64,000 bases of DNA from assembly GCF_029227915.1 (NCBI RefSeq), contig NC_079879.1, positions 10,044,001 through 10,108,000 of the forward strand. The letters run 5' to 3'. This DNA is from Hydractinia symbiolongicarpus. Its lineage: Eukaryota; Cnidaria; Hydrozoa; Anthoathecata; Hydractiniidae. The notes under the pieces are model-generated. The model searched no databases, was not told the origin of the DNA, and worked only from the letters and a program-made list of their open reading frames with translations. A program made the position numbers and the translations under genes. Positions 4,644-49,647 of this stretch are shown here, piece after piece; within the stretch, counting starts at the first letter, position 1; each line of letters opens with the position of its first letter.

Positions 4644-4794
4644 GTAAATATATATTTCGTTCAGTAATTTATCAAACAAACGTACACATTAATACTCTGC
4701 ACTTTGTGAGCCCTCACTTTCTGGATTGAGATCTGACAAACTTTCTCGACTCGAAATGATGCGAAAGATATCAGGGATAAATTTTGTGCGTACT

Positions 4795-5094: not shown

Positions 5095-5284
5095 TCGAAA
5101 TAAAACAAACCTTAGAAAAAAAAAGTAATTGAAAAATTAAAAGTTGAACATGTTTAACTTTTAATTTTTAAGGTCATTGGAAATGAGAGTGTAAAAAATG
5201 ACATTTTTTTCTGTATACACTGTCATTTTTCAATGATAATTGGAAAATAATCATTGAAAGTTCAATCATCCGAAAGTTCAATCA

Positions 5285-16700: not shown

Positions 16701-19471
16701 TTTTTAAATTTTGGGTGATGGAATTATTATGTTTCTTGTTGTTGTTGTTATTGTCAGTGTTGTTGTCGTTGTTTAAATGTTGTTGTTGTTGTTATTCGTC
16801 TTGAAAGAATTACTATCATTGCTAATATATTTCTAATTTTTTTTTCTTACAATTATTTTTATTTTATTAAAAATGTTTAATAGTTATGATGATGTTTATA
16901 ATTTTATGTTGTTATGCGTATAATATAAAATGCACATTTGCGATACACTGCTATGACAAAAAGACAGAACTGTATTAACGGCTATCGATAAATGATGTAA
17001 AAAAATTGTAATGTTGTATTATTTGGCTCTGGTACTTTATTGATGAAAATTGTTACGCAATGGGTGTATACATGCCAATCATAGCTACCCCATTTTATTG
17101 GAAACTTGTGACTAAATCATATATACTCTATAATTACTCCGACATACGTACTTACACCTGACATGTGTTCACTGATGTACCAAGACATACCACACAAAAC
17201 TACTACGAAAGATTCTAGTTACTGTAAACTCAGACCAGTGGTGTACTCTGGTTCAAAGCACAATTTGCATCAATGCACATAACGCTGTTTAAACTCGAAA
17301 CCACACAAACCCACGGAGTCACACACATGGTGCACATATACAAAGATCGCACAAACAGTCTGCCAGTTGCGTCAAGAATATGCACGTGGTATGGTACATT
17401 TCACACAAAAAAGATGATGTATGCACTCGTCCGTTTTGTTGTCACGTTGGGTATATGGTTTTGTTGTATGTAATAAACACTTATTTATGTAGAGCACATA
17501 TCCTTACGAAGTTTTAAAGACAAATAGCTATAGATTGCCATTGGATGTAGACAAAACGAGGCGCGAGGTACACTTATACTATTTGCACGTCCTTCTTTTT
17601 CTCATTTTCTTAAGCTTACCTCTTTAAAAGAACTTTTGTAAAAGATTATCTTCACACCGGTAGCTATATACCTTTGAAATTGTTGTGATAAAAAATTACG
17701 TTTCAATTCAAAAATACTAATCTCTCTTCGAGCATTTTATGTATCTTCACTTCTTGCATGTTATGTATTTTAACTTTCAAGCATGTTATGTATCTTCACT
17801 TCTTGCATGTTATGTATTTTAACTTTCAAGCATGTTATGTATCTTCACTTTCAAGCATGTTATGCATCTTCACTTTCAAGCATGTTATGTATCTTCAATT
17901 TCAAACATGTTATGTATCTTCACTTCCAAGCATGTTATGCATCTTCACTTCCAAGCATGTTATGCATCTTCACTTTCAAGCATGTTATGTATCTTCACTT
18001 TCAAGCATGTTATGTATCTTCACTTTCAAGCATGTTATGCATCTTTACTTTCAAGCACGTTATGTATCTCCACTTTTAAACATGTTATGTATCTTCACTT
18101 TCAAACATGTTATGTATTTTAACTTTCAAGCATGTTATGTATCTTCACTTCCAAGCATGTTATGTATTTTAACTTTCAAGCATGTTATGTATCTTCACTT
18201 TCAAGCATGTTATGCATCTTCACTTTCAAGCATGTTATGCATCTTCACTTTCAAGCATGTTATGTATCTCCACTTTCAAACATGTTATGTATCTTCACTT
18301 CCAAGCATGCTATGTATCTTCACTTTCAAGCATGTTATGCATCTTCACTTCCAAGCATTTATGCATCTTAACTTCCAAGCATGTTATGTTTTTTCACTTC
18401 CAAGCATGTTATGCATCCTCACTACCAAATATGTTGTGCATCTCCAGGAAGAAATCCACGTAAACGGAATATTCAGACCATATGTTTTGATCGTGTGCAG
18501 AGTGCTGTTTTTGTACCTTTTTGATAAATATGAAGAGTTTAAATATGCATGTATGTGTCTAACTTTTTAGCATGTAATATGCATAGAAATCTAATATTAT
18601 TGATTGTCATCACGCAACCACTCGGCATAATGTAATTTCGTCGTCAACATTTTCCTATCGATTCCTTCAGCGTACCTTATCATTTTAATAATTAATTCCA
18701 AATTAACTTTTAATCGCCCTTATATTTTCTGCTGATCAATCGGAAATTTAGTTATTGTGACTAAAAATTCTGTCCCTTCCCTTTGCAATTAAGAAGAGGT
18801 TTATTGTAATTCAAGTTAACTTAAAATGATGATTAAATTTTCGTGTACTAATTTTAACTAATCATTAACCCTGTCAACAACATAAATATACTTCTTTAAA
18901 TGAAGTAAACTTTAAATTTTTTGGTGTCTTTTAAAGAGGTAGCTTTAACAAATTAAGTTAACAATGCTAATCACATGATTAAAAACATAAATTGTCTTTA
19001 CTATATACAGAAATTTAACCGAAAGCAGGGTGTTCACTTACGTGTAGGAAATGTCAAAAAAATTGCCGAAAATCCAAATAGTGACAAAAGTTTAATAAGT
19101 GTCGAGTGAATTATACATCGAAATTTGGCTAAGAAGCAATGTTTTTGGTATTGTTAGTATCCTTAGATATGATATTACTTAGAAAATAAACTGATCAAAA
19201 AAGTCATCAACGTCACGTGATTGCACACCCTGCATGGTCAATTGTAACTCATAAAAGTATATCAGTCAATGTAGTTTTCAATCTTTTTTTCTAGAATTGG
19301 TGCATTCTAGAATTCCTTATTGCTTTCCCTTACTTTATATTTTTCTTGGTTTTTCAGGTATATCTTAGTGATCGCGAATTCTACCAAGCCTTCCAAATGA
19401 CAAGAGAGAAATATTACGCCTTGCCCAAATGGAAACAGGATGACCTAAAGAAAAAGGCTATGTTGTTTTAA
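10775..19471 (+). CDS. ablim: Actin-binding LIM protein (abLIM/UNC-115 type), 18 exons, 5' start not seen
   Basis: Exons: 10775-10876, 11056-11239, 11368-11534, 12393-12519, 12794-12887, 13362-13496, 13580-13616, 14210-14242, 14384-14773, 14925-15031, 15203-15257, 15345-15397, 15635-15676, 15751-15799, 16273-16310, 16561-16623, 17493-17567 and 19358-19471. All junctions agree in phase and give 620 residues ending in TAA. Exons 1-6 encode four LIM zinc domains: CDRC...HQYCFSC, CGGC...HPDCFGC, CAGC...HLWCFTC and CAGC...HPQCSRC. The third and fourth carry the abLIM signatures NGQALLAL-like SGQALLALEKQWHL and GEGEEMYLQG. A long, probably disordered Ser/Pro-rich linker follows (exons 7-16, with PPPVPPPP). 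The last two exons form a villin-headpiece domain (YPYEVL, VYLSDREFYQAF, LPKWKQDDLKKKAMLF) that binds F-actin. The protein should link actin to signalling, as in axon guidance and muscle. The initiating exon was not identified with confidence. Confidence 0.93.
11871..12203 (+). mobile_element. Helitron-like remnant in an abLIM intron
   Basis: The 3' end (AACCGTGGATTTTCTCAAGG, short spacer, CTAG, then T) matches the Helitron at 3746-3882, with a decayed hairpin. The left boundary at TCTATATATAAATG is a guess from similarity to the 5' end of that element. Confidence 0.4.
17731..18446 (+). repeat. 25-bp minisatellite, about 28 copies, in the last abLIM intron
   Basis: The unit is close to GCATGTTATGTATCTTCACT followed by TTCAA (25 bp), with variants TTATGCATC, ACTTCCAAG and ATTTTAACTTT. 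Copies at the edges are more divergent. Because 25 is not a multiple of three and the unit lacks stops in most phases, all three forward frames stay open for hundreds of bases. The resulting long open frame at 17758-18570 is a by-product, not a gene. Confidence 0.9.
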
Positions 19472-23328: not shown

Positions 23329-24698
23329 GTTCATAGTTATGCCGAGTTTACGACCACTGTATGCTGTTACATGCAATCCGAGAACTTTATCAACTTTAAC
23401 ACATACCTTTCACACGCATTTCGAATGACATATGCGCATGCGCTACCATCTCTTTTTTTAGAACGGTCTGAAAAACATTTTGCGACTAACTGCCGAAGTG
23501 TCGCCAAGTATCATTTTCCCTGTTTACTGACATTTTAAAGCATAAAACAATAAACGAATTGTAAATCAATTCAGCTTAAGCTAAGTCAAGATACTGTCGT
23601 ATTCATAAAAGTGCTGTTAGCTTGTTATTTGCTCTTTTCAAAATTTTCGTGTACATACGGTTGGATAGTCCACATTTTATCAATAGTCACACGTAACAGT
23701 CGTACAGTGTCAGAGTTAGAAATAGAGCCAGAAATATCTACAGATATGTTTCTACTATCCCTAATCCCCAAAAACCTAAAAAATTTATCTAGACTTACAA
23801 CCTTTTCGTTTCTGCTAAACCAATGCATAACCATAATCATAATCTCTTTTTCTTATGACTATGGCATAACACAACGAATATCACTCACTATTAAGTAGAT
23901 TTATGCACTACCATAGCAGCACCGCATTCCGCATTGTATTTTAAGAAGCATCAGCAAAATATGTAGCAGCTGTCTTTTTTTCGCCATCTTCTTTATTAGT
24001 ACCCGTATGTTGTTAAAAATGGTAGCCGGAATCTGTACGACAGGTGAAACCGTGGATTTTTCAACAGGCTAACAGCTAGTATGCTTTACTAATACCCGCA
24101 TTTTGTTTGTTTGTTTTACGGGCTTACTGATTTATAATGTAATTGAGACACCTTTTTCGTGCAGAAAACACTTAGATCCTTGAATCAAACACAATAAACA
24201 TAGTATTTGTTAACACCAAATACACAAATTTAGCGGGTAGATAATTTTGTAGTTGAAAAAAAGCTTAAATTTATACCCAGCGAAAATAGTACCATTAGGT
24301 AGTCTGCTATTTTAAATTTTTGTCTACCTCATACCTAAACAATTTGTGGACCAAGTAAACACGATACATCTTTTAAAGACAATTAAAGAGGTATTTAACT
24401 TGTTTGAAAGCGTATCGCGTAAGACGTCCTCGAAGGGAAAAAGACGTCTTTTTGTGACGTTTTCGTTCTCGTATGTTTCAAAACGTCTTAAAGACGGCTT
24501 TATTCCGTCTTTTTTAAAACGTTACTGTTATGACAGATCTGCTTAGGAGATTCTAGCCTATAGGAACGTATCACACTATGCAAAATCTGTGTAAAGCGAA
24601 GAATTAGTTCACGTACTTCTAATTATTTATTTATTTACCTAATTTATGTACAGTTCTTTACATTTATTAAATTTATTTCTTCATGCGTCGTCTTTCCG
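23329..24698. other. Gene-free stretch with a Helitron end
   Basis: AACCGTGGATTTTTCAACAG followed by CTAG at 24076-24079 and T is a third copy of the Helitron 3' end; its start, near 23987, is unclear. At 24420-24530 several inverted GACGTCTT/AAGACGTC motifs could form stem-loops. No exon was recognised. Confidence 0.4.
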
Positions 24699-24812
24699 CT
24701 ACGTGTGTTCTGGAAGCTCAGGCTTTGTCGACAAATAAAGTAAATAAAACGCCGTCACAGTTAAAACAACCACAGCAAACACGAGTTCGTATTGTGGACA
24801 TCTATCCAACAT
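24699..24812 (-). CDS. Single-span membrane micropeptide, 37 aa (paralog A)
   Basis: ATG at 24812-24810 opens 37 codons ending in TAG. The product begins MLDRCPQYELVFAVVVLT, continues with a hydrophobic stretch to about residue 27 and ends in the polar tail STKPELPEHT. PQ-(F/Y)-E followed by VFAVVVLT is shared almost residue for residue with the micropeptide at 33286, and more loosely with that at 37801. Such conservation between separate loci supports real coding, since neighbouring DNA is unrelated. A TTTTTTAAG acceptor-like sequence lies 9 bases before the ATG, as in paralog C, so a 5' UTR intron is likely. The protein probably sits in the ER or plasma membrane; its function is unknown. 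Confidence 0.7.
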   Translation of the reverse strand: MLDRCPQYELVFAVVVLTVTAFYLLYLSTKPELPEHT

Positions 24813-25081
24813 TCTTCCAACCTTAAAAAATGGAATGTAAGCTAGAAGTACATGCCATTTAAATTATAAATACTTTAAATATTAAAAATACACAAAAATC
24901 AGCTTTTTCTTCTAGAAGTTACAAAGTTGTCGTTCTTTTAAAATAAATATCTGCCTCATAAGAAACAGTGGCCTTAAAATTATAAATTAAGTCGCTTTGC
25001 CCGTTGCCGGATCTAAAGCCGGACTTTGTCTCATATTGAACATAGTTTCATTGATTCGACTGGTATATACTAACACTATGT

Positions 25082-25196
25082 CAACCTCGATCCCAGGACC
25101 TGTTGCCTCTTTATGCATATCGGAAGGCGAGACGAACATCAGACTTACCAAATAAGAGCAGCGCCGATGAGAGACCAAAAGCCCTGGGAACAAGTT
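25082..25196. repeat. Palindromic MITE (CTCGTTCCCAGG family)
   Basis: Starts CAACCTCGATCCCAGGACCT and ends AGCCCTGGGAACAAGTT, the inverted form. It directly abuts the left end of the integrase-bearing element at 25198. Confidence 0.7.
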
Positions 25197-26072
25197 AACT
25201 ATATGTCAGAATCGCCACTATTTGAACAAACGCCACTATTTGAACAAACGCCACTTTGTGTCATAAATCCGCCACTATATATCACAACAGTATATATAAA
25301 AAAATGAAAAATTGACACTATATGTCACAATTTCAAACAACCTTTACTTTGTTGCGAGCAAACCAAAATGATATCGTAAGGTCGGTGGGCATGCTCTAAT
25401 CATGGATAGATAATGTTGTATTGTATGATTTATGTCAGCGCGATTTTCGTTTTCTAATTAGATTTTCTTTTAATCCTTTAACATACAATTTCCACTTCCG
25501 TTTAAGTAAGAAAGAATTTAACATAAGAAATTCGGACTCAAAACACAACAATACGTCCTAGTACATAGTTTAAAGGAGAAGCGAGCAAAAAACTATTTTG
25601 TGGCAGCCAGAAATTAAATTTTAAGTGAGAGAAAAATATTTATTGATTTCTAAATCCCAAAATCTATTAAGATAGCTACTATAATAACAAATAAATAACT
25701 ATATTTCACAACTAAGTATCCATATAATCTGCCTGGCAACGTCTTTACAGAATTTTCATGGCTGCATGGGGTGAAAATAAGTAGGTTTTGGATGTACTTA
25801 CCAGTAAAAATCAAAAATAACAACTTTTACTTGATAAAACCAAGAATATTTTACGTACTATAGTAGTAACAGCATTTTATAACCTTCATTTAAACTTCTT
25901 TGAACTAAAGAAATATCTGTCATGACCAACAACAGTATTTTTTTCTTGTTTTAGTCTCTTTTCTACACCATACTATCAACTTTCAACGATAAAGTTTGTT
26001 ATGATGAGATGGCGCCAAATTTCAATAAACATGCAGAACGGAAACATTCAATAGCTAACAAATGAAACGAAC

Positions 26073-26201
26073 ATGGCGGCTTCATCTTTATTCCTTGAAT
26101 CTTTACTTTTTCTATCTTTACTCGCAAATTTTTTCAGTTGGACTGTTTTATGGAGCAGACAAATTTATAGTTGGACTGTTTTATGGAGCAGACGAGACCA
26201 A
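26073..26201 (+). CDS. Possible signal-peptide exon with an in-frame duplication
   Basis: ATG in good context (AACATGGCGG) opens 43 codons ending at a consensus donor (CAA then GTAAGT). The product has a hydrophobic N-terminus (MAASSLFLESLLFLSLLANF) and an 11-residue unit, SWTVLWSRQIY, repeated once because of a 33-bp tandem duplication. No downstream exon of matching phase was found, and it lies within the TIR element, so it may be chance. Confidence 0.25.
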
Positions 26202-27199
26202 GTAAGTCAGTCTGGTCTTTAAAATCAACACTTATCATTAACTTTTATTCAGCAGCCATGCCGCAGCGCCTCTTCTTTAATATTTGTGCATAAAGTGAGT
26301 GGTTTAGCTACTATAGTTATATTTAGTTCATTCCGTTGTCACTTTATCATCGTAATGACATACCACCCCAAAGATAGAGCTTTCGACAGCAGAACTGCAC
26401 GATCCCACCGCACAAGTCTGCCAGTGCTGCTTACCTAATTTCGTAAATATTTCTGTTCGTTAAGAGACTTAATTGCAAGCTAAAAGTTACTGTCAAAGCC
26501 TTCAAATAGCCGGCTTCCTAAAAATAGCCTCGTTTTTAAAATAATTATTTTCTTCAAATCTAAATAATATCCAACCAGAATAATATATCGCTCTAAATAC
26601 TTCAGTTTTGTCTTGATAATTTGATATTCTATCTAAATGTCCTTATTTGAATAGCATAGAACCATAATAAAATTTTGGATGACGTCATAATTATTATAAC
26701 TTATGAAATTCGGGAAAGGTGTATTAGATTTAAATAGCCGCTAATCTAACATTTTGTCATCGTTTTCTTGTACACTTGCATAGCCTTGATAGTCTCTTTG
26801 AGTTTCAATTTCCAGGTCAAAGGAATTCTCGTCGCCCTTGTCGAAATAATTTTGTTATATGCCGAAACGTCCTGCCATTTCATCATCTGTTGACATTGAA
26901 TTGTTGTAAAGTTCATCAATTTCCATTTCTAGACCATCAATACTCATATAATGTTCTCCATTTCCTTCATGGCAATATCTAACGGTTATGGTCAGAATGT
27001 TGTCTGAAGCATCTTCTTGCGGTACAATGAGGCCAATACAATTTCTACGTTCGATAGAAACAACATGAATTCAAACGACAAAATACTTACTGGTAGTAAA
27101 TAGTTATCGTAGCTTTCACAACGCGAAGAATCAAATATGTTTGCAAAATCCTTCCAGGTATAAAATGGTGAAAGTCGGTATCTGGAATTAAGTATATGT

Positions 27200-28004
27200 T
27201 AAAGCACTTCATTTGGTGAGGACGTCACAGATGATGTGGAATAGCACTAAATTCTAAATTAGCAATTTCCATTACCCTGTGGATTAAAAGCAATCGAGTA
27301 TCCGTACCTTTAAAAAACATTTTTGAGTCTCCTCTGTTATAAGCAACAAATGCAGGTCGTTTATACGGTTTAACGTGCAAGGAGCTTTCGACAAGTCATC
27401 AATATTACTATACTTTTGACTTTCAAACTTCAAGGAAACTGTCTTGCTGGTAATGTCACATAACTGTATCTAAATTTCTCTCAAACCCACGTCTTTCCAA
27501 GCATTACTTGTGTTCCCTTCTAATCCTCTTCCGTTATCACATTGTAGAAACGTTGGGGACCATGTTCTCGGTATAGACGCATTATTTCATTAGCAAGAAG
27601 TCGACTTTTCTTTTCTGTAATGGCCTTATCCACAAGAAACGACTAAACACATTCTGCACTGTCAAAATTTAACGATAAAATTCTCCACAGTATTCCACGG
27701 CCTCGTCTTTCATATCCACTAAATCTATTTGATGCCGTTCCGTTATTTTATCAGCAGTTAAATGCAAGAAGGACAGCTTTGTTGTTGAAACGACCTGATG
27801 TTGTCAAATAGAACAAAAAAGATGCAAACAACAGTCTGATTCTATGAGTTGTCCTTTCAAGACTACAAAATACATGTTGCAAGAAATGGTAGCTACTTTT
27901 GCAAATATATGTTTCATGCCCATCTTTACCTTCGTAGAGTTGCTGTTTAGACGACATGTCTTGATATGTCTTTCTAAGAAACCCATGAATCGGTTCTTCA
28001 TCCT
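27200..28004 (-). pseudogene. Integrase (rve) core remnant
   Basis: Across shifted frames the minus strand gives TERHQIDLVDMKD (first catalytic aspartate region, about 27735), YRxILTVQNVFSRFLWIRPLQ (about 27660) with a stop in place of the usual tryptophan, and LQCDNGRGLEGN (second aspartate, about 27535). These match the integrase core of gypsy, Ginger and related elements. Multiple stops and frameshifts show it is dead. The third catalytic residue was not located. Confidence 0.7.
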
Positions 28005-29788
28005 TCAGTCTTGCGAACGTCTGACTACTTGGTTGTTTTGTCCATTACTTTAATAATAGGGTTTTGTTCAGACGTGTGTATTATATTTTTGTCACCAACA
28101 TTTACCGCCAACAAACAAATCCATCACCCTTCCATCGGTAATATTTACGTTTTCTCCAACTGGGTTCTTTCGTTACAGGAGTGATATGTCTTTGGAAAAA
28201 ACTGATAGTGGATTCGTGAAAGGCACCACTGATATTGTAAGTTTTTAAAACATCTAAAACAAATATTGACTTCCGCATTTTAAAATTTTTTAATGACAGT
28301 GCGAAAACTAGCGGTGGATCGTATGATTTTTTAATTTGTCATTTATTGGTCAAAAATGAGTATTTCAGGTGGCGCTATTTGTTGTTGTAGATGTACGGTA
28401 ATACTTCACTATTGACGCATATAACACTCACGATACGTGTAATTTAACTTAGTACTTTGATGACGGTCTTGTCACGTGACCATTTGACTGGAGGTTTATA
28501 ATTAGCGTTCCAGATTTAAATTAACATAATGTGACTAAGATTCTATCGTTTGTGAAATACTGTGGCGTTTGTGACATATAGCGGCGATTGTGACGTATAG
28601 TGTCAGTACAGTCTACACTTGGCTACACTCTTCTACAGCCACGTAGTGACTTGTCGACATTACTCTACGTTCGTCTACACTCGTGTACAGACCCTATACT
28701 CGTCTACAATCGTCTAGTGACTCGTCTGTTGTTTTAGAACAGATCCTTTCCCACACTTTTGTAACAGCAGTACTCTTATTTAGCTGGTCAGCAAAAATCT
28801 ATTAATGTATGCTTTCGAGCCTGAAGATGAACATATGGTATACGAAATTTGTATTTCGTTTAAAAACGTCTTTATGAAACAACCCGCTTCTAAAGAAGTA
28901 AAGAGATGGCTAATATATAGACCTGTCCCTGCTTAATTGTCCTTATCTTTATGCATTTTAAAAATGCTATTTTTGCGCTTAATAAAAAACGTCCTTTACC
29001 GCCTTGCGTAGTTGGGGCTATTACAAAATAGGTTATTGTGAAAAATCAAAATTCGAAATATAGTTGTGAGTACTGTGTAGGGAAAACTCGTGACGGAAGG
29101 ACAAACTTAAAGACTAGTTATAAAGCAATTATACTCGTTAATACTTCTTAATTTTTTCAGAAATTTCGTAAGAATAACCACTATGAATTTTTAAGAAGTT
29201 GTTACTTTAAATTTGAGAAAAACTTTAATTGTTGTTAGATTTGGTCCATCTGTCACAATAACCAATCACGAAATTTTCATGCCTGAATAAAAAATTGGAA
29301 TTGAAGTCAATTATTGTTTAACTATCTCGAAACATTCCATTTCAGAAATATTTATCGAGTAAAGTGTCACGATGGCTAATTTCTTTCGATATTGTTGAAT
29401 CTTAATTTGTCCATCCGTCACGAAAGTTAGGCGTTAAACTTTTAAATACCCAGCTTTGTGAAAAAAAAAATAAACTAACTTGTTTTAATTTGAGAGTGGA
29501 AGTTGTAAAATTGCACTCCTAAAGAAGCATAAAGAAAAGTTGTTTTCATTAGCTTACATTTAAATTTTTGTATATTTGCATATTTAATTTTTTGTGCGCT
29601 GAAGCATAACAACTTGCCTATTGTTGTAGTTTTCAGTTTGTCTTTTTTTTAATTTTTCCCGCCTTTCTTAATTTCGAATAAAATGGACATAGACAATCGC
29701 AAATGAAATTGACAAACTAAAAATATCGCCTCGATCGTCTGTACCTTTGTAAATTGTACCATCATGCAATGCTGATGCGCCAACACCC

Positions 29789-30094
29789 CTATTCTTTGTT
29801 TTTCTTGTAATTTTTTTTCTTCCGTAAATTCAAATTCTCCGTTCTTCTTAATACAAACTTGCTATCCTCAGCAATTTGTTTGATAATCTTTTTCCACAGA
29901 GGCATTAAAATCCTATTATAAGAAGTTGAATGGCTTTTTAAATTACTGAATAGCATACTACAGAACATAATTATATTTGCGTGTTTAGAAGTTTTCTCAA
30001 TGATAAGTTGAATAAGCGCAAGATTTAGTTTTATATATAAAACTTTTATTATCAATAAAACTGCAAGTACAATATTGAACTTTTCAATACTCAT
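29789..30094 (-). CDS. Hypothetical small basic protein
   Basis: ATG-initiated minus-strand frame of 101 codons. The N-terminus (MSIEKFNIVLAVLLIIKVLY) could be a signal peptide or anchor; the tail is lysine/asparagine rich. In DNA this AT-rich the length is only weak evidence, and no homology is recognised. Confidence 0.2.
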   Translation of the reverse strand: MSIEKFNIVLAVLLIIKVLYIKLNLALIQLIIEKTSKHANIIMFCSMLFSNLKSHSTSYNRILMPLWKKIIKQIAEDSKFVLRRTENLNLRKKKNYKKNKE

Positions 30095-31285
30095 TTTTGC
30101 TTCACTTATTCAACTTTCTGCGAGCAGATATAAAGGTATGTTAGTTTCTTTATACAATTTGTAGATTTTTATAAGTAGCTAGTTAAATAAAGTAGGTTTT
30201 CTGTTAATATTTTATTGTTTCCTGGAGGTAGCTTGTTTTTACCTTTTATTTACTTTCAAATATTAATACATTTTAATATATATTTTAAAATGTGCGATAT
30301 TTTCTCTAAATTCAAGAAGGGAAGCACTCAAGTTTGAGAAAGGTTATAATATTCTGTGGTTGAAATAAATTTTGTCGTTGCCAGGAAACTTAGCATGATT
30401 TTTCTTACTATTGGGAAGTCACTCAATTTTAATACTCTCAAGAGGGCTTATAGTTGACTTTGCTAATTTTTGTCGCATCACTAAGTTAGTTAAAGAATCC
30501 TGTTAGGCTATCAAGTTTTGTTTTTTCTGAAGCATATTGTCTGTAATCAAAATTTTCGCTTCGTTATTAAATAGTTATACACTTCTGATTGTATTTTGCA
30601 AAAATAATTTGTTACAATAACTGTAACATGCGAGAATAAGCCATTATATTGGTGACAATTAGTGTCATCAGATACATATTAGCTTCATGTTTACGTTTTT
30701 TCGTTACGTTACGTTTGAATAGGATTGGTTAATGGAGTTAATTACATGTGGTAATTATATCCGTGTGTGTGCTTATAATGAGAATTTAAAAGTGCTTTGC
30801 ATGCAAAAATACTTAAATGTCCTATTTTAAAAAGTGCGAGCAGAATTGATAAAAGTTCTGAACTATTTTGGGTTTCTTTCAAGTTCATACAAACTTAACA
30901 ATATTGGAATATTTATTCTGTCATTTCTATAAGCTTAAACAATTAGTTTAACTATCCCAGCATGAACCATAAAAAAATACGGATGTTTTTTTTATTTTCG
31001 GACAAATTTGATTGTTCGAAATTTTTAATTGCCCTAAAAAACCAAAATTTGTTTAATGATGTGTTTATAATAGGTAAGTATGAGCCATATTTTCAATACT
31101 TGTGGTATTGTTGATATTGTTCTTAATTTGATGAAGACGATTATTCAACACCACCGTCATAGTTTTTTTTTTCATTATTAACCTGGTTATTCTCCTTTAT
31201 ATATTTTATTATATATTTATTTATATTAGAAAAATATTTCAAAATGAAATATTAACGCCCTAGAGGCGCGAATGAGTGTGAACCA

Positions 31286-31628
31286 CAGTGAAGCCTCCAT
31301 AAAGCGGACATTTACGGGACGAAAACTTTTGTCCGCTTTGAAGAGGTTGGCACTAAAAAGTTGCTAAATTTAGTTACGGCTTGTTTTTCACTACACAGAC
31401 TTTTGGACTCCCCCCTCCCCCTCCTTACTGGATTGCAGGGGGAAAGAAAAAAGATGGAAAAATGCACTTTTAACATATCCGTTTTACCAGCAAACATAAA
31501 ATATTCCGTTATTTTCATTTGCTTTCAATTGCTAATCATTATGTCCCATTCATTAATGATCATCGTACTGTCTGATAAATGCCTTACTTAAAAGTGTTTT
31601 TTCTGTGTCCACTTTATGGAGGTCACTT
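31286..31628. repeat. MITE with pogo/Tigger-like ends
   Basis: The left end, CAGTGAAGCCTCCATAAAGC, and the right end, read inward as AAGTGACCTCCATAAAGTGG, are inverted copies. CAGTRRACCTC-type termini followed by CGGACA are typical of pogo-like non-autonomous elements. Similar ends (CAGTGACCTCGCTAAAGCGG at 34013, and AGCGGACATT at 33833) mark other damaged copies. Confidence 0.5.
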
Positions 31629-33285
31629 ATGCCTTAAACACTCAGACAGGACCTGCAAACAGTGTCCGTGTTACGGAGTGGTCGTGTCTGCTTCGGAAAG
31701 ATTTTCTTATTAGAGTTTCCTATAAAGAATGTCTGCGCTAGGGAGGCACTTGTATTATTTAAAGGGTTTAAAGTACTTATACTATTTAAGTATTAGAATC
31801 GACAACTATAACGCTTCAAATACTTTATATCATGAAATTCATAGAAAATGGAGAGATAGTGCCTTTGGGTGTACCAAACTACCTGCTTGGAATATTTGCT
31901 AAATTTTTTGTCATTCATTCAGTTGCCGGAAGTTTCCGGCACAACCGTTTTAATGTCACTAAAGAAAGTACGTCGGATATGATGTCTCCACGAAACATAG
32001 AAAAGCCCTGGAAACGAGATTGTTTTAAGCCTTAATTGGATCATTTCAATAAAAACTTATTGAACACATAGATTTTGGTGTTTTTGCGCTCTGACCAAAA
32101 CCAGGTCTAATTGAAATTTTCGCACCTTCTTCGGCAATATTAGGGTTAAACAATGCAAAAAACACATTGTGACCGCTGGTTAGTGACGGAATAATGTCAT
32201 TGGTATCAATGCGAAATATGTGCAAAAAAATTGAATTGGTAAAGGCTAATTGAAATATTTTTGTATTTTTTAATGCAACTTTATACTATAGTCTAAAATT
32301 GCAGCGCATTTTATCTAATTAATCTGAAAGTTTCAGTAGCACCCAAGCAGCATAGTGGTGCGTTCAACTAAAAATAAAGGCAAAAAGTCCTGGGAATGAA
32401 GTTGGAAGAAAACGAAGGAGTAATTGACGAAAGTAAAGTCAAAAGTTTTTTATTTCCGAGCGAAAAAAGAAAGACAAAAAATGGTTAAAAATAGAATTCT
32501 GAGTTTGTGTGGAATTCTGTGTGGAAGACACAAACACAGAGGTAGAGAGAAAGAAAAAGGAGAGTTTGATTCTAAACAATTTTTTGTCCTTTATGGCTCA
32601 CCCTCGTTCCAAGAAATTTTTACATAAGAGATGACGGCGACAATGGTTTATCCTTAGCCGACAGCCATGTTGAACTCTGGAGCTTTGTTTTCCCCCACTA
32701 TATAATTTTTTTTTTAAAAAAAACCCTTTTTATTCTTGCTATTTAGACCTGTTTTAATCTTTCTGATATCAATTTTTTTGTTTTGTTTTACATAATAGCA
32801 TTGCTTACTAACAAAGCAGGGCATGAGCAGATGGGGCGGGTTTTTTGTGCGACTTCGGATGTATCGTTAACAAAAAAAATAAAACAAAAATTACATACAC
32901 TTGTGATTTCTTCTGATAACGTATTACTTTTTAAACCCCTTGAATTAATTAGCATTTAAACTAAAAGAATAAATAAATAAATAGATCATATAAATATTTG
33001 TTTGTTCACAATATAATGCATTATTTTACACAGTCAGTAATTTTTATAAGGAGGTTTTTTTACTGGAATTGTTCACACGGAAAAAAGCTGCTGTTGTTTG
33101 TTTTTTATCATTAAGAATGAATGCGAATATTTCTTTAAAATAAAAATGAATTTCTACTTAAAACAGAAGTAATTTCTTTTAGTAGGTTTTCAGAAACTCA
33201 GTTTGAACTTCTAAAGTGTTATAATATTATTTTAGGTTTAAATAATACGTAACAGAAACGAGAACGGGGTGCCGCGTGAATCACA

Positions 33286-33378
33286 ATGCAAGTTCCACAA
33301 TTCGAGTATGTATTTGCCGTGGTTGTACTTACTATATTAGCAGTATACATGGTAGTGACTGCATACAAGCTTCAATGA
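33286..33378 (+). CDS. Single-span membrane micropeptide, 30 aa (paralog B)
   Basis: ATG at 33286 opens 30 codons ending in TGA at 33376. The product is MQVPQFEYVFAVVVLT followed by ILAVYMVVTAYKLQ: a short polar head, one membrane-spanning segment of about 20 residues and a short basic tail. The last 12 residues (YMVVTAYKLQ and the two before it) closely match paralog C at 37801, and the PQ.E.VFAVVVLT core matches paralog A at 24699. An acceptor-like TTATTTTAG lies about 50 bases upstream, suggesting a spliced 5' UTR. Length and layout resemble sarcolipin (31 residues), and an ungapped alignment of the membrane segment keeps F, V, T and Y positions; regulation of an ion pump is only a hypothesis. 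Confidence 0.8.
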   Translation: MQVPQFEYVFAVVVLTILAVYMVVTAYKLQ

Positions 33379-36300
33379 AAGTACATTATGGACGATCTTC
33401 CATAGACAATGTATACATAGCTCAATGTCAATATCACAAATTTTAAAATGGCGCAAAGAATAATCATGAATGTAAATATATTTTGTTGTTAAAATAAATT
33501 TTATAAAATAAAATAAATAATCATAAAAAAAGACAGTTTTCAAGCACCGCATATGAAGCCGTGGGTTGGTTTCACAATTATTTTCGTAGGTTTTCTATGG
33601 ATCACCATGCTGATATACAACATTCCTAATTTGTTTTGTGTTCAGTTGTCGCTCATACAAAGAAACCCTGATATACATCCTATATTCGTCCTTAAAAAAT
33701 AGGACTTTGCTCTGTGTAATTAAACCTTTGTCATAGGTGTGTTACAAGGTGTTAGTTATGTACAGAAAACTGGTGAAGAAAATGGTTCAGCAAGAGCCAA
33801 TTTCCTACCTACAATAGTAAATCTACTTTTAGCGGACATTTTTAAAACGGACACTTTCTACAATGGACACTTTTCCTAGGAACGAATGAGATGATTGTTA
33901 AACCCTCCCTCATCCCGAGGATTTTTTTCCAAAAAGGAAAAAGTTCCTTGTGACGAGGGTGTGGTAAACGCTTCAGCAAAATCTCTAGGTTGAGGAAACA
34001 TTATAGCAGTGACCTCGCTAAAGCGGACGTCATTTCAAGGTCCCATTCAGAACTAAATAAGGTATACCCCCCCCCCCCCCCCTTCCCCACTCTGCCCCCA
34101 GATGTGACCCATATATAACAATTGGTCATAAGATATTATCGTAAGAACTTTATATGTATTTCTTAACCAAAAACAGCCCTGCGAAGTCTTCTGTTGCTTT
34201 TACCAACTTATTGGTAGCCAACTGCGTTCGCTAAGAGCAAATTCTCAAAGTTTAAGTCTGTTTTAATTTTTTAAATAAAAATAAATATTTCATAATATAT
34301 CATTCTTACGCTGCATATTTCAACTAAAGATAATCTTGTAACCAACGGTGAATTTATACACTAAAGTGGAAATGTAAACAAAAAGTTAAAAAAATATAAA
34401 AATTGATGCTAATAGCAATGTGACACAGATGATACTTTTAAAAAGTTCTAAAGCACACGTTATCGTGTTAGGTGCAAGAATATTTTTTCTTCTTTTCCTC
34501 CTTAAGACCTCCTTATTTTTCACCAATCTTATAAAAACACACATGCAAGGTATAGTTATCCCCTCAACGCTCCCTCAATTCATTTTCCAAACATTTGTTT
34601 AAATTTTGCCTAAAATCTATTTTTTCAATTTAATTTACATTGCAACCTTTTTGCTGGGAGCCGAAGATGGTAGCCTTCAATTTAGAATTATAGTCAGAAT
34701 TTAACGGTTGTTTATGACTGTCAGGGCTGTACAACCATGGGGGAGCGGATAAGGGCACGTCACCCAAAATGTTTGTTGGCTATGGTTAACACGAAGAGAG
34801 GGTTATGCAGAGGTTTTGTTTTTAAAATAGCTTCAGGAGTTAATACCACAAACATTTTCATTGCGGCCTTAGGCCGGAGGTGCCTCATACGGCGGTAAAT
34901 TATTTGCTCTTTTAATTTGCACCCCTCCAACAACCTCACAACAAACAAACAAACTTGAGTGTAAGATGCTTCGGACCTGATTGTTCTGCATTTTTGTGGC
35001 TAACACACTAGATGCATCAAGGTATTTTTCCCAAAATAGCACATACCCGTGAATACAGAACTGATTGATTTCTGTAGCTACTCATAAACGGTACAGCTGC
35101 GGTTCAGTTATTTGTAGTTCTTAAATAACCCATAAATTTTGATTTCACTAAGACGTTTAGTTTGTAAAAATCCTTAAAGTTTTTTCATCAAGATTTTCTT
35201 ATAAAACAACTTTTCTTTAACAAAATATATGTTTACACACACAAAAACACATCCCACGTGGGCTAGATAAACAGTTATTGAGAATGAAATGTCTTATCAG
35301 CACAATTTTTTGTTGTTCTAAGAAATTAACTTTGCTTGTGTTTACTTAAGATCAATGAAACGGTTTTCATTCAGGCTAGGAGTGTGTAAGTCGTTTAGAT
35401 TTCGTTAAAATAAACAGACACAAGCAGCGAATGAATATTAACAAAATAAGGAAATAATACGTTTGGAAGAAGTTATAGTACCTACCACACCGGGTAAGGT
35501 TTTTAGCTGTTTCAAATGCTGCCGAAACAAGTTTCTTCATCTCTTCACTAATTTTCTTTCTTCTTTTTACATTTTTTACATTTTTATATTTTAAATTTGA
35601 AATAACTGACGTCACATGGCTTTACAAAATTAGTTGTTTTACAGCGTGACAGACTAACCTTTTAAGCGTAGTTTCCATTGCTCCATATTGTATGTAATAG
35701 CCACTGTACAACTAATTGTGAGAAATCATACCCAGAACTGTCCGATTTTATGCAATCAGAGCATGAATCGTTTCACGTTTGTTTTTATAATTTCAATGTC
35801 TTAAAATGTTATTTCCCCCACCCCCTATCAATGGAAAATTTATGAAACGAATAAAAGAGGGTAGCCATAATAAATGTTTTTGTTAACTTAACGATATACA
35901 TATGCTGCATCAACATGGTGCTTGTACTGGTTTATATTTTTAGCTCCTTAGCTAGGTATTTTTACTTTTATCACAAATATTGTACTTTGTAACCTTGGGT
36001 AATACGAGATTATAAAACGAAAGTACATCTTGATCCCTATAGCTAGGTAGCCAGGATAGCTAAAGCTAAGCATCAAAATAAGTACATATAAATTTTGTAT
36101 ATATTTGAAAAAGGTAATAAAGATCCAACTAAACTTTAAAATATATAAAAAAATATAAATAACGAAGCTATTGTATTTACTTGTGATTACTCTAGCTGGT
36201 TTTAAAGTTACATTGGAGGGCTGGACGGGGTTAACGTATTATAGGCCCTCATTTTAAAGAAAACAGCAGAACCTACAGCTGCCATTTTGACTCACAGACA

Positions 36301-37800
36301 GGCCGAGTTGAGAAAAGGAAAAATTTCAATTACTAATTGATTGTTTGATTTTTTATTTTAAAACTTTTACAACGTGGTGATTTTAAACTTATAAAATTCA
36401 GATAGGGGTAAAAAATTATATTAGGGCAGAAAACTTATTATATTACGTTAAAACAACAATAATGTTTTCCATATTTACAAACTCTGTGCAAGTATTAGGG
36501 TAATTATAGTTTGTTAATTAATTTATATTTTCAATAATTTTTGTTTACCTGTTAAACAATAAGCACAACGTGAACGTACGTATCTTTACCGTAGTGTTTT
36601 TTTTTTTAAATATTTAGTGATCTAGCGAAAAAAGAAAGTTAACTTATCGCAAATTAACTTTTTATTTCCTGCCCTCCTGCGCAAGCTTATTTTTTTGTTT
36701 TTTGTGGTTAAAGCAGAACAAAATAGGCAAGGCCAATACAGGCGTTGTCACATTTTATCCTTTTAAATACTGCAAGAATTAATTATATTTGTTCGAGTGA
36801 GTTAGGGCATTCGCCATCGAAAAAAAGGTTTCACAATATTAGCATGTAAGCAAAGAACAATAGAATTAACCAATCAAAAAGCACCGTCAGTACATTGTTT
36901 AAGATCCAGCGTAATTTTTCCCACCTTAGCTATTTTGATTTCCTGGTGGTAAGAAAAAATATGCTGGATCTCCTGGGATAACGCGTCGTTGGAGCACTTT
37001 AACCTAATACGTAATTTTGCCAATCACCAAAAATGAACAACATGGAGTTAAATATTTCAAGATTGACTAGATATATAAGAAAGACAAATCTAAAATAACG
37101 CTAGATTTAATAATGTGTCAACAAATTTGTACAACATAAATAAGTCCTAATTATAAATGTCTTAAAAATATTCCTGCTAATCAAACAATATATTTTACAA
37201 AAGTTAACAGAATTTTGATATAAACTTCTTTCACTTTTGCCATTTTATATTTTTTATATAGTTACCTTAAAATTTAAAAGCAATCCCTTCGTCACAGCAG
37301 CTTCCATATTAATTACTTTGTGAACTTCATTTTTTGCGTGGAAAAATTGAATCACAATGGAAATTGATTTCTGCTTAATCTTTTTGCGATATACTCTATT
37401 AGCTGACACTCTGAAATTTACGTAAATTTTGAACATAAAACAATTTAATTTTTTTCTAAACTTGCATTTTTTTATTTACCATGGCATGAACAAACAAAGT
37501 GAAGTAGGAATAATCTGGCATGTTTATTTTACTGGTTAACTTTTTTTTTGCGTCAAAATATTTGCGTACAGTTTTAGCTACTTCTGTTTTGTATTTTTTT
37601 TGGCATGCTTGGCATCACATTTTACTAATTAGAAACATTGCCAGGTGAATGTTAGTAAATAAAGATAGCCTATCAATAAGGAAGCGGTGCACTTAAAGAA
37701 ATTTGTACTTTAAAACCTACCTGCCATATCCTCTTGTGTTTATTTAATTAATTTTTCTTAAGGTTAAAAAGATTATTTATTGGACGATTTGTTATACAGC
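33379..37800. other. Gene-poor DNA between two micropeptide genes
   Basis: AT-rich sequence that may include 5' UTR introns of the 37801 gene. A polyC run of about 17 bases lies at 34066-34082, next to a pogo-like MITE end at 34013. A 49-codon open frame at 33553 and a lysine-rich minus frame at 35376-35615 were seen, but nothing supports either as a gene. Confidence 0.35.
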
Positions 37801-37905
37801 ATGGCAGAAAAAATAAAATCCCCGCAATTTGAATACCTGTTTGCTGTCTTTGTGTTATCTATGATAGCTATCTATATGGTGGTGACTGCGTACAAGCTTC
37901 AGTAG
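37801..37905 (+). CDS. Single-span membrane micropeptide, 34 aa (paralog C)
   Basis: ATG at 37801 (context CAGCATGG) opens 34 codons ending in TAG. The product is MAEKIKSPQFEYLFAVFVLS followed by MIAIYMVVTAYKLQ. Against paralog B, PQFEY, FAV, VL and the whole C-terminus YMVVTAYKLQ are identical, while codons differ at many third positions (for example CCGCAATTTGAATAC against CCACAATTCGAGTAT), which points to purifying selection on protein and not to recent DNA duplication. A TTTTCTTAAG acceptor-like site lies about 40 bases upstream, and AATAAA follows at about 38033. It has one membrane span; its partner and role are unknown. Confidence 0.85.
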   Translation: MAEKIKSPQFEYLFAVFVLSMIAIYMVVTAYKLQ

Positions 37906-38523
37906 CTACAGAACAAACAAAGAAAAGACGTTAAGCATATTTATAGAAAAAATACTCCTTTTGTAAATATATTTGCAAGATTGCTTAATCTTCTAGCGAT
38001 GTAAATATTACCAACGAAATATTTTGATAACAAATAAAAGTCTCTTTCAATCCCATTTTCTGAATTTAATTTTTTTTTCTTGGTGTGTTAAACCAGTGCT
38101 GCTTTTGTTAGATGTCTTTCCAAAATTCAATAGTCCGTACTGATTACAAGAAAGTTAATAGGATTTATTTTCAGTGTGGAACAAGCCATAATCTCGCTGT
38201 CACGTGATTTTTAAACAAAAGGGCGAAGTTCTCAGAAATTCAATCACGTTGATTGGCTGTCAAGTATTTAAGACGAGTCCTTCTCCCAAAAACAACTTGT
38301 TTTATTCTTTTAAGTCTGTCTACATGGGGAAAAAGGTTGGTTTCGTTTAATCAAAGCGAATTAGAAATTAATTGAAAAGCTTGTCAATTTAAGGAACTGA
38401 GGACAAAAATATTTATGTCTTACTGCATAGAAAATAGTGCGCTAGGATGAAACCAAGATTTGAAGTATTAAAAACAAGATCTCATCTCCACTGTGAAATC
38501 ATACAAGTGCATTTTAGTGTAAA
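37906..38523. other. 3' flank of micropeptide C
   Basis: Contains the probable polyadenylation signal near 38033. No other gene was recognised. Confidence 0.4.
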
Positions 38524-44420: not shown

Positions 44421-47400
44421 TTACACGTCTTCGTCACTAGTTTCGTCATCACTGTCTGAATCGTCATCACTTGACAGTTCATCAAACCCTTCAAAATCTT
44501 AAGGAGAATGAAATACTTTTAATATTTAAAATAGCGGCGGCAGTAGCGGAAATAAAGAATTGCTTCCGAGTAATAATTAAAAAACTAAGTGACTAGATTG
44601 TAAAACTTAATATCCAAAATTTTACCTTCTACTTCTCTGGAGAATCCATAATAATTTTCATTGCTGGTGACATCTACTGCTTTTGGAGACATTTCGCCTT
44701 CGTACCACTTAATGATATAGCTGCCATCTTTCAGCAGCCAACCCATGTCTTCAGGAAGGTGATTTGGAGGCTCGGACGTTATTGATGACATCCATAACTG
44801 TGCAACATACTTTGTTCGATAAATCTTTTGACGCAACACTCGTAAACAAGGTGGTAGAGAACTTCCATCAAACTTTTTAACACAGGAAATTGCTTCATTT
44901 TCTCCTTTTGGTTTATACTTTTCCAAAAACATTACCAACCTAGCTTCATCTACAGATGATAGATTCCTTTTTCCATACATGCTGCATACAAATTTTTCCA
45001 ACGTTGCAAAAGCGTCATCTGTGACATCAAGATTTGTTCCTAGCTGTTTAAATACATCTTGCACACTTTCATTTTTTTCTAGTAGTTTGAAAGGTCGAAT
45101 TTTTCCTTTCCTACTAAACGATGCTGTATAGTCACATCCAGTGAAAGCATGGTATGCTGGCAAGGCCATGCAAATATTTTTGCCCAATTTCTGGTATATT
45201 TGATTAATACTTATGTACCTTAATGTATTTTTAGTGTAAACACCGGTTTCCATCCAAATATTCAAGCTGTTAGGTAACTTACTAAGGCAGCCAAGAGCAA
45301 TTATCAGCACGTCAGTATCTATGGTTCTTATCACAACGTTTGCTGGTGTTTGAATCGAAGATAGGTGGTACAAAATTCTGGAATCAGCTTCTTCATGAGT
45401 TGAAAACAATTTAACGATCTCGGTTTTGACCACGATCTCTCCTTCAACTCTAAACATGTAGCAGGTATCATTGCGATTCATTATGACTGTTTTGTTTCCA
45501 AGTACTGTTGAATGCATGTTGTTTTCCCAAAAGAAGGCTAAGAACTCCACCAATGCTGCTTTGAAGTGATCATTTCTCAATGCATTCAACCAGTTTGAAG
45601 GTCTTTTTTGCTCAGGTCCAGTTATCTGATAAGCTCCATGTCTCTCAGTACATCGCAAATCCCTTTCACAATCCTTGATACTCGGGTGTACCATTTTGTC
45701 TAGAACAAAATGTATGATGTTTCCCTTGCTAGCACAAACGCGTTTCAAAATGAATGTTGCCAGAGCTCCAAATGTTGCTGGAAGGTCAACAAAAAGATGT
45801 AGGAAAAACATTCCATCAATTATGTTAACATCGACGCGATTTGGATCGTCAGTTTTTACTTTTGCTTCTAACTCGTTCAATAATTTGACTTTAGGGGTCT
45901 TTTGCATTTTGCCATCAACATGTCCAAGAGATAAAGGGACAGGTGTTAGAGGATACTTCAGTACCTCTGCCATATCAATTTTCCTTTGTAGCGAATGGTA
46001 CAAGATGCTACCAAACAAATCTCTCATCATCGTTACAGCAACCACTTTGTTGTCAGCAGCTTTAATATTATACTTCGTTCCCCCAGTTGCAAATGTGTGT
46101 AATGTTTGTCTTCGTATAGGTTTTTCGAATCTTGCTGGATCTTTAGAACATTCGTCAATAAATTTATCACGTGCTTTGCTTCCAACACTAACGATGTTGA
46201 GCAAAAACTTTGTTGTGTCTGGTGAGGCTGCTTTTCCTGATGCTATATTAAAAAGATATTGTTTTTCAATAGCATCGTTAAATGGATTCATGGTTTCCTT
46301 GACCATGTTTATAACTTGATGTAAATCTTTAGAATTTTGTCGCATTCTGCTGGCCTTTAAATCTTGAGACACGTCTTCCTGTTTTGTCATCCCCAAATTT
46401 TCAAACACGTATGACACAATACTTGTTCGAATAGAATGACTTTGTGCCCATCGTTGACGAGCAGAAATAGAATTTGTTAAAGCTGATATACCTTTTCGCT
46501 GACATGCAGCATCTGCATTTATCGTTTGCTCTAATGTCAAGTCGATTGGTAATCTTGAGAATGACTTTTGGGTTCTTCGCAGCGAAAATAATCCCCTTTG
46601 AAATTCAGTGTAAACCTCGGGATGAGAGTCCTTTAGTTTGAGAAGATTATCATGATAACGGACAATCCAACGAGCGTAATTTGGATGGTTCATGCTAAAG
46701 AAATAGTTTGCGACTTTAGGCAAGCAGCACACATACAGATCAAAGTTTCCATCCCTCAAGCTTCTACTAAAATCATGGTAAAGTCGAATCATCTCGACGT
46801 ACCCCATCCAATATTGTGCTGTTGCACCATGATTTCCTTTCTCTGTATCTTGCCTGAATTGACTGTATTCACGCAAGACATTGTTGACTTCTTTGGATAC
46901 TTCATGTCCTTCATGCAAGTTCAAGGGTTCTTGGGATTTTATGAACTTGATTTCTTCTTGGATATCTTCTTTTAATTGAATTTCCTCTCTTTCTTGAAGA
47001 AAATATTGAAAATGAAGAATCTCCATTGCAAGTGCAAGTATTTGGTGACATCTTTTACTTCTCTTGTAACACTTTCCCAGTAAAAATGACTTGAGAGAAC
47101 CTTTTTCAATCACACCAGCTTCATTTAGGATATGCGGACCACCAGATTCAGCGATGTACTTGCCAGATGCGCTAAACATGGCCATCTCTACATGGAATGC
47201 ACCTAGAGCGACAAATATATTGTCAAACTTTGGAGATTCTTCTGCTTGAAGTTGCATAGCCACTTTGGCAATCGCAAGATCATATGTTACTGAAATGTTT
47301 TTTTTACCACATTCATTCGCAATCACCTGTGCACGCCTCAATGTTTCTGCTACTACAGCTATAGAAGTTGGAGACTGATTAATTTGTGGCAGGTACCAAA

Positions 47401-47767
47401 CTTTTTGCAGATTGTTGGTATTTTGAAAAATTATAGAATTCCAGCCAACCCACATTGGTGTAGTGTCGGGTGAAAAATAAAAATCCATCATCCACAAGGT
47501 ATCGTACATGCGTGCTTTGATATATGAAAGGGGTTCTGACGCCCTTCTCTGGTCATCTAGTGGAAGCATTATTCTTGTTAACATCTTAGGTTTTTTTCTG
47601 TACGGCTCTATGTCTAATCCTACAGCCAGAAATGATCTACGTTTTTTCTTTCCAGATAGCTGAGAATTGCCAAGGGTAGAATCGTCATCTTCTTCCAATG
47701 ATTTGTTATTATTTTGTGACACAACTTGGTACGCTATCCCAACAGTATCATGCAACGCCTGTTCCAA
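44421..47767 (-). CDS. Transposon protein, C-terminal part: FEN1/XPG-like nuclease
   Basis: A frame from about 47767 runs about 1,047 codons to a GTAAAA donor after 44626, then joins in phase to 44497-44421, adding the acidic tail DFEGFDELSSDDDSDSDDET before TAA. Without splicing it would stop at 44585. The nuclease-like core lies at about residues 640-900: NIIDGMFFLHLF (about 647), STHEEADSRI (about 789), RTIDTDVLIIALG (about 816) and HAFTGCDYTASFSRKG (about 876). These mirror the EAxA, DxD and LGCDY acidic motifs of FEN1/XPG nucleases. The region is likely to cut or join DNA ends during transposition, but this is inference. There is no ATG at its beginning; it continues the upstream frame after a frameshift. 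Confidence 0.75.
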
Positions 47768-49647
47768 GACTTGACATTAGTTTCATACCATGTGGTGTGG
47801 CATTCCCGGCCTTTGTTGATGTAAAAGTTAATTCTGTTTCTAGTTCTTCGATAATGCTATAGCTAACAGAGTGTCCAAGTCTATTTAACATTTCGATCAC
47901 TTTTTTGCTTCCTGTAATGCTTTTCACTGCCAGTCCAAGCTGCAAATGTTTTGCAGGTTTTTTTTTTCCTGATGTTGCAGCAAATATGACATCGTCAGCA
48001 ATACTTTTTATGCGCCTCTGCTTCTGATTTGACTTTACTATGCGTTGGTCAGGACCACCAATAAGGTAACTGAAAAATTCAATTAATTCATTTGGTGCCT
48101 CAACTTCACCTTTTTTTATATCTGCAAATGTCACTTCATCGGGTATAGGGCATTTTTCAATTTCCATTATGGCAGACCTTAATGCAAACGCTACATCTCT
48201 AATCTTCGCTTTCAATTTTGTCTTCATCGAGTACTCTTTCCTGAAAGCTTCTTCTTCGGAAATGGTGCTGCAGAATATCAAGTTTCCACGTCTTGTTTTC
48301 CCCTTCATGATTTGTATACTTTCTTTGTAATGCTTTAATAATTTTTGCTCAAGTTTTGCTGAAGACGATTCAATATCTTCGAATGCTTCATTCCCGATTT
48401 CTGCTAGTAACATGTGATATTGATTTTTTATCTCGCTGAGTAAGATAACATCTTTTTCTTTTAGGATGTGATCATCAATATAAGCACAAACACCTTCAAA
48501 AGCCTTGCAGTGAATCCCTCTCGCAGTATGCCAGGATGTTTCAAGTTTTTGTCTTTCCATCCCTTTTTCATTCCTCTCTTGTATTGCCAATGGTGTTTTT
48601 TCGGCCTTGCTTTGATAACTGACCCTGCACATTCCATGGTAGTATATTTCTTTGCTTACAAAATCTTCATTTCCGATTCGCACTAACATAGGCTTATCTT
48701 CCAACCAACGTGCATACTTTTTTATATTTTCTTGAAAATTCTCTGTAGATGCTGCATTTAATTTTTGCTTTAAATTTTTGTGCTTCTTTTCCTTTCGCAT
48801 GCAGAAAATACATATCTTTGAAAACACTCCTGTTGAAGATGATTGCACTGTTATGGAAATTTTTGAACGGGTTAAAGGGACAGCTTTAGATACTTTCTTA
48901 TCGTTGGGGAGATTTTTTCTCTGTGTTTCAGACAATGCTATAAATCTTTTGTAACAATTTAAATGAAATCCTTGAATTTTATTCACAAAGCCAGGAAGTT
49001 GCGTATCCTTGTACTTTAGATTTCCATTTTTACGTGTAACTAAGATAGATTTGCACTTTCCCAGGGTTTCCGTATTGAAGAGATTTATTTTGCCAACTTT
49101 GTATCCATCACCAACATGCAGCACACAGCATCGTTCTAAAAGTTACAAAATTGACAAAAACGGTTTTAATTGTGGTGAAAAGAAGGTTTTACGGAAATTT
49201 AGGTGTTCCGATTAAGCAGTGATTTCAAAAACATTAAATATATTGTATAAATACAATACGCCATGTCACTTAAATATAATATACAAAACAACAAAACGTT
49301 AATATGAAGATATATTGTAATTCTTCTGTAAATAGCGTAAAAAATCAGTTAATATAATTAGAACGTAAAAATGTACAAAGGAATTAATATTTACAAGGCT
49401 TCAACATAATCTAACAAGTATGTAAATCAAAGAAGGTCTCATTTACATTAAAGCATCTTCAACTTACCATCACTGTCAGTATTTCCATTTGCATTTAAAT
49501 TGTCATCTACAGTAGCTACAACATCTGCAAAATATCACAATAATAACTTGTTATTGGTTATCTTAAATTAATGTATTCTAATTAATTATGTTTTCCTCTT
49601 ACCATCGCTTTCATTGATCTTATTGAATATTTCTTTGTTCGAAAATT
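47748..49647 (-). CDS. Transposon protein, N-terminal part: zinc-finger region
   Basis: Three phase-matched exons, 49647-49603, 49524-49468 and 49135-47748, encode about 500 residues. Cys/His clusters include RCCVLH and GFHLNCYKRF early on, then CIFCMRKEK and YYHGMCRVSY about 60 residues later: two C..C/H..C modules that should bind zinc and probably DNA. The frame meets TGA at 47750-47748 right after SLGTGVA, while the nuclease frame picks up 20 bases earlier in another phase. The two frames therefore look like one gene broken here. A possible earlier exon (RFRPNTTGNRHNKPDSERKK at about 49935-49995) could not be joined in phase, so the start is unknown. Confidence 0.65.

Follow-up and report, generated by a model that had tools for sequence, protein, structure and literature searches.

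Three small open reading frames (ORFs) of the hydrozoan Hydractinia symbiolongicarpus, here called A, B and C, lie within a stretch of 64,000 nucleotides of contig NC_079879.1 (positions 10,044,001 to 10,108,000; hereafter the window) and code for peptides with one predicted membrane span each. Their codon pattern, their residue retention and their unrelated flanks indicated that they arose by old duplications and have been retained as proteins, which is clearest for B and C. The best single mechanism for these peptides is that they act on the calcium pump SERCA like sarcolipin (SLN), the vertebrate modulator of this pump in muscle, and other regulins, a reading to which we give a probability of about 0.4 and which stands at near even odds with a role as regulator or subunit of another membrane protein. 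Under the SERCA reading, three old paralogous hydrozoan genes would each make a complete single-span membrane peptide of 30–37 residues that would be inserted post-translationally as one hydrophobic helix and would sit in the lateral groove of SERCA, a P-type pump, in the membrane of the endoplasmic reticulum (ER). Binding of the peptide would alter the calcium affinity or the turnover of SERCA, and the paralogues would serve different cell types or states. Of these elements, the partnership with SERCA, the ER location, the topology and the direction of the effect are those that we infer.

Re-translation of the DNA returned exactly the coordinates, the lengths (37, 30 and 34 residues) and the sequences given in the original prediction, which had been made from the sequence alone. 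When the three peptides were aligned, 11 residues proved invariant (P, Q, E, F, A, V, V, L, A, Y, and K), and the tail YMVVTAYKLQ, which the prediction had assigned to B and C, was identical in these two peptides and not found in A. The best 19-residue Kyte–Doolittle means were 2.34 (A), 2.51 (B), and 2.32 (C). For peptide C, AlphaFold2 run on the three-sequence alignment predicted a single helix over residues 8–33 (mean pLDDT 83.7), as is expected for any sequence of this kind. All three are thus predicted to share with the regulins a short chain that carries a single membrane helix towards its C-terminus.

Purifying selection on the coding sequence was strongest for B and C. Over 27 codons (81 bases), this pair differed at 22 bases, distributed over the three codon positions as 6/0/16; the nonsynonymous divergence (dN) was 0.12 by NG86 and 0.15 by YN00, and the synonymous divergence (dS) was saturated and not computable by NG86 and 1.54 by YN00, which gave values for this pair alone. 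Residue retention was assessed in 5000 trials per pair, in each of which the observed base changes were redistributed randomly and the residues kept were counted. B and C kept 21 residues against a random mean of 14.2, and none of the 5000 random placements reached 21. A and B kept 14 against a mean of 6.9, again with 0/5000 reaching the observed value; over 25 codons, their differences by codon position were 11/6/17, with NG86 values of 0.49 (dN) and 3.8 (dS). The evidence for A/C was weak: 11 residues were kept against a mean of 8.0, a value reached in 341/5000 trials, the differences over 25 codons were 12/6/12, and dN and dS were 0.49 and 0.93 (NG86); the BLOSUM score was the sole outstanding measure for this pair, being reached in 1/5000. 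The proposal that many third-codon positions differ while residues are kept thus held for B/C and was borne out more weakly for A/B; A/C had no third-position excess. Across the paralogs, dN/dS was about 0.1 or lower for B/C and, by NG86, about 0.13 for A/B and only about 0.5 for A/C. The flanking DNA had been described as unrelated, and it was: over 400 bases on each side and the three pairs, local-alignment z values ranged from −0.3 to 2.2 upstream and from −0.9 to 1.7 downstream, against 5.4–18 for the coding parts.

A 25-residue profile of A, B, and C was slid along all six frames of the window, with six Markov-random windows as a control. The three loci scored 99.0, 95.3, and 83.7, and the fourth-best place scored 26.3; since the profile was built from the three peptides, only this gap to the remaining places is informative. 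The best place in each random window (n = 6) scored 21.7–26.7, and a candidate fourth copy at 21296, with its score of 26.3, was discarded as lying inside this range. Over 100 kb on each side of the window, the profile found no intact copy, the top place (33.7) holding an in-frame stop. A search with peptide B through all 76 contigs of the genome (480,894,487 bases; E up to 10) gave three matches only, namely B (E 4e-11), C (E 2e-7), and A (E 0.079); this search scores the best candidates only (three here), so that more distant copies could escape it. The 0/5000 results for B/C and A/B, the dN/dS values, the decayed flanks, the three genome places found with B, and an acceptor-like motif common to the three loci (see below) support the proposal that these loci are selected microproteins. 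Even with a partner other than SERCA, they are a clean case of selection-kept genes of about 30 residues that size cut-offs would drop.

A sarcolipin-like helix was suggested by comparison of the peptides with 19 proteins, two sarcolipins with sequences from the Protein Data Bank (PDB) and seventeen others; the sequences of all comparison proteins other than sarcolipin are provisional. Since sarcolipin had been suggested by the length and the helix sequence, this comparison is post hoc. The two sarcolipins ranked first and second for A and for B; for C, myoregulin (z 4.37) was level with rabbit sarcolipin (z 4.29). A, B, and C all aligned gaplessly with sarcolipin in one register, with the F of "FA" on F12, B (FAVVVLTILAVYMVVTAYK) against rabbit SLN (FTVVLITVILIWLLVRSYQ) being an example. 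Scores with rabbit sarcolipin were 36 (A), 46 (B), and 38 (C), and B scored 43 with human sarcolipin. Among 20000 shuffles preserving the core, the rabbit score was reached by 2 for B, by 26 for C, and by 396 for A, counts that are not three independent tests, because A, B, and C are mutually related. A second background consisted of 358 hydrophobic segments taken from open frames of at least 100 residues in 250 kb of Escherichia coli K-12, unchecked against annotation. The A/B/C profile scored 39.3 on rabbit and 36.7 on human sarcolipin, and at most 30.0 on the 358 segments; it scored 32.7 on myoregulin, also above all of them. On the same scale, B and sarcolipin scored 43–46, sarcolipin and phospholamban 44–50, and sarcolipin and sarcolambans 27–37. 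In addition, B and C carry a Tyr (that of TAYKLQ) at the place of SLN Tyr29, the rest of the tail being different; PMC8396278 describes SLN Tyr29 as contacting SERCA Phe88. Allowing for the many conceivable small membrane proteins, this likeness is suggestive, no more.

Several observations weigh against placing the peptides with the regulins. E. coli segments reached the peptide–sarcolipin scores from the sarcolipin side in 0–1 (B), 2–6 (C), and 4–5 (A) of the 358 cases, and from the peptide side in 1 (A), 0–1 (C), and 0 (B). Gumbel p values for the profile were 5.7e-4 (rabbit) and 1.3e-3 (human), post hoc and uncorrected; for single peptides with rabbit sarcolipin, likewise uncorrected, they were 5e-4 to 6e-4 (B), 3e-3 to 5e-3 (C), and 6e-3 to 8e-3 (A). 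The profile was matched on phospholamban and DWORF by 70 and 127 of the 358 segments, and on insect sarcolambans (24.3 and 21.7) by 14 and 37, which is not significant. For A, endoregulin came near sarcolipin (27 versus 15–21 of 1000 shuffles), and rotated cores scored up to 38 versus 36 for the actual peptide. The rotated-core control as a whole (best 38, 45, and 37 for A, B, and C versus 36, 46, and 38) was uninformative, since a core rotated by only a few residues still aligns for the most part. In the myoregulin match, the peptide F falls on the earlier of the two F residues of LFxxF, and in the sarcolipin match on the later one; published regulin alignments also disagree among themselves (PMC8087094). 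The place of SLN Asn11 is occupied by Val in A and B and by Leu in C, and A lacks the tail tyrosine. According to PMC8396278, the contact of Asn11 with SERCA Thr805 is a critical one, Asn11 is critical for inhibition, and the RSYQY tail of sarcolipin is needed for inhibition; the authors also expect a polar residue at the SLN Asn11/PLN Asn34 place in myoregulin and another-regulin. DWORF is described as being without elements required for inhibition, so the missing Asn counts more against an SLN-type inhibitor than against every regulin.

Database searches also told against the likeness. BLASTP did not align B with sarcolipin even at E up to 100, phmmer with B and C against PDB chains gave nothing at E up to 10, and Pfam gave no sarcolipin or phospholamban match for A, B, or C. 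A Pfam hit of B to Spore_YhaL fell below the cut-off (E 0.19) and was dismissed as hydrophobic chance. In the protein database, C searched as a 45-codon stop-to-stop frame had no candidate, and none of the 13 candidates from the A/B/C alignment reached E up to 10; the 94 pattern matches in viral contigs included no relative. Such tools are weak at this length, since a PDB search with rabbit SLN as the query (E up to 10) recovered nothing but SLN chains. Accepted regulins also fail the comparison with bacterial segments: in all pairs with myoregulin or DWORF, the score was reached by at least 25 of the 358 E. coli segments. The exact peptide strings did not occur in the open-access papers searched, and no report of regulin-type SERCA peptides in cnidarians was found among the titles and abstract openings listed. 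The statement that no named family carries the motif was thus upheld for database matches, and the resemblance to sarcolipin had been overlooked. Since Asn11 and the RSYQY tail are not conserved and there is no database match, the peptides were not filed as sarcolipins.

The strongest alternative, for which the chances are about balanced, is that these selected microproteins are a small subunit or regulator of a membrane protein other than SERCA, be it an ion channel, a different P-type ATPase, or a complex of the respiratory chain or the ER. The resemblance to sarcolipin would then be convergence of two short Val/Leu/Ile-rich helices. The coding evidence fits this equally, the silence of the databases and the modest Gumbel p values agree with it, and the helix-flanking charges, as read from the sequences, leave the topology unfixed, so that ER tail-anchoring is not implied. 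Against it, A, B, and C agree in one register with sarcolipin, and the profile score on sarcolipin exceeds those on all 358 bacterial membrane segments.

The form of the genes bears on whether each ORF might instead be one exon of a longer protein, the tiny proteins then being fragments of a spliced gene, which we regard as improbable. A shared acceptor-like AG lies shortly 5′ of every ATG (Table 1), and the frame of A has no stop upstream as far as 24863 and runs across this site, both of which favour the exon reading. In B and C, however, in-frame stops are located between the AG and the ATG, each of the three frames is closed by a stop codon that AATAAA follows (a signal of little weight where A and T abound), and the acceptor can be explained otherwise: an upstream exon of the 5′ untranslated region or spliced-leader addition would fit the acceptor-like sites. 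Spliced-leader addition has been reported in hydrozoans including Hydractinia, according to PMC11067881. The two strands of the window together contain 9 occurrences of the pattern TT[AT]AGGTT, which was chosen post hoc from the three sites themselves; three of these are the sites ahead of the A, B, and C ATGs, against an expectation of 0.004 per any 60 bases. After each of the six remaining sites (10322, 23774, 41386, 44407, 52905, and 58315), the first ATG opens a frame of only 12–26 residues; that after 58315 (+) is a 26-residue ORF. Finally, it is highly improbable that the loci are chance frames, decaying non-coding repeats or mobile-element copies: although the window abounds in short ORFs (325 that begin with ATG and span 25–60 residues, 15 of them strongly hydrophobic) and the A/C pair alone has little codon bias, the score gap (84–99 versus 26), the unrelated flanks and the lack of any further copy found with B in 481 Mb stand against this, and the B/C silent-site pattern refutes it in practice.

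Table 1. Positions in the window of the three ORFs and of the signals near them (a slash marks the putative exon start)
Feature	Position	Strand	Remarks
ORF A (37 aa, predicted single membrane span)	24699..24812	-	tail LSTKPELPEHT, unlike B/C
ORF B (30 aa, predicted single membrane span)	33286..33378	+	stop-to-stop frame 33280-33378
ORF C (34 aa, predicted single membrane span)	37801..37905	+	stop-to-stop frame 37768-37905
Candidate 3′ splice/trans-splice acceptor AG of A (TTTTTTAAG/GTTGG)	24822..24823	-	first exon base 24821; putative exon start 9 bases ahead of ATG
Candidate acceptor AG of B (ATTATTTTAG/GTTT)	33234..33235	+	putative exon start 50 bases ahead of ATG
Candidate acceptor AG of C (TTTTTCTTAAG/GTTA)	37761..37762	+	putative exon start 38 bases ahead of ATG
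AATAAA 3′ of A	24672..24677	-	first of several; +21 from stop
AATAAA 3′ of B	33493..33498	+	+114 from stop
AATAAA 3′ of C	38033..38038	+	+127 from stop

Other features were observed in the window. An ORF at 59693-60856 (-) belongs to the DUF7164 family of Pfam; among its 41 listed relatives, the best had 89% identity (P0004) and the best named one was a Hydra vulgaris protein (58%), and the matches listed included seven named H. vulgaris proteins at 43–58%, a nematode record at 36%, and a protist record at 32%. The Hydra matches support a cnidarian origin of the DNA, most naturally from a hydrozoan other than Hydra. On visual comparison, a short ORF from 61355 (-) is similar to the signal-anchor at the N-terminus of P0004, so a separate first exon is probable for this gene. 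At 44585-49142 (-), two long open frames (1063 and 464 aa) adjoin each other; they have no Pfam family above cut-off and may represent a gene of a mobile element or of a low-copy repeat. A 28-copy array of a 25-bp unit at 17727-18423 has long open frames in two reading frames of the + strand. The frame 4795-5136 (-) gave a MADF/Myb-SANT-like Pfam match just over the cut-off (22.4 versus 22 bits), and the open frame 4302-4667 (+) near it gave no Pfam match; that the two form a DDE transposon pair is a guess.

If the peptides do act on SERCA, the cluster may tentatively be seen as a cnidarian branch of the regulins, though we find this somewhat doubtful: SERCA control by peptides would then predate the cnidarian–bilaterian split, and the paralogues would be cell-type-specialised and would work without the asparagine thought essential in sarcolipin and phospholamban. 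According to PMC8396278, the conservation of SERCA peptides extends from insects to humans. If true, the regulin reading would date calcium-pump peptide control to before bilaterians and would supply a tractable animal for testing peptide control of the pump.

Among known small membrane proteins, the FXYD regulators of Na,K-ATPase have the motif PFxYD some ten residues ahead of their helix. This spacing was not present in A, B, or C, in which PQ(F/Y)E(Y/L) directly abuts the helix, and FXYD1 and FXYD2 were rejected as relatives, their scores being equalled or exceeded in 149 to 828 of 1000 shuffles. OST4, STMP1, COX8A, glycophorin A, KCNE1, TOMM5, Sec61b, and a synaptobrevin were likewise rejected (at least 129 of 1000 shuffles, the best figure over the whole rejected set, FXYD1 and FXYD2 included). 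Myoregulin aligned gaplessly with C, with a score of 42 that was reached in 1/1000 shuffles; it differs in that shuffles reached the score more often for A (332/1000) and B (31/1000), and its long N-terminal domain has no counterpart in the three peptides. The insect sarcolambans (luminal ends as given in PMC9338278) are invertebrate SERCA peptides of 28–29 aa with one helix. Sarcolipin (PDB 3w5a, 4h1w, and 1jdm) is a vertebrate protein, here set against cnidarian peptides that do not match it at database level; its tail is RSYQY versus TAYKLQ here, and TREL precedes its helix versus PQ(F/Y)E. It nevertheless resembles them in length (31 aa versus 30–37 aa, B having 30) and in its single helix, with a hydrophobicity peak from about residue 9–13.

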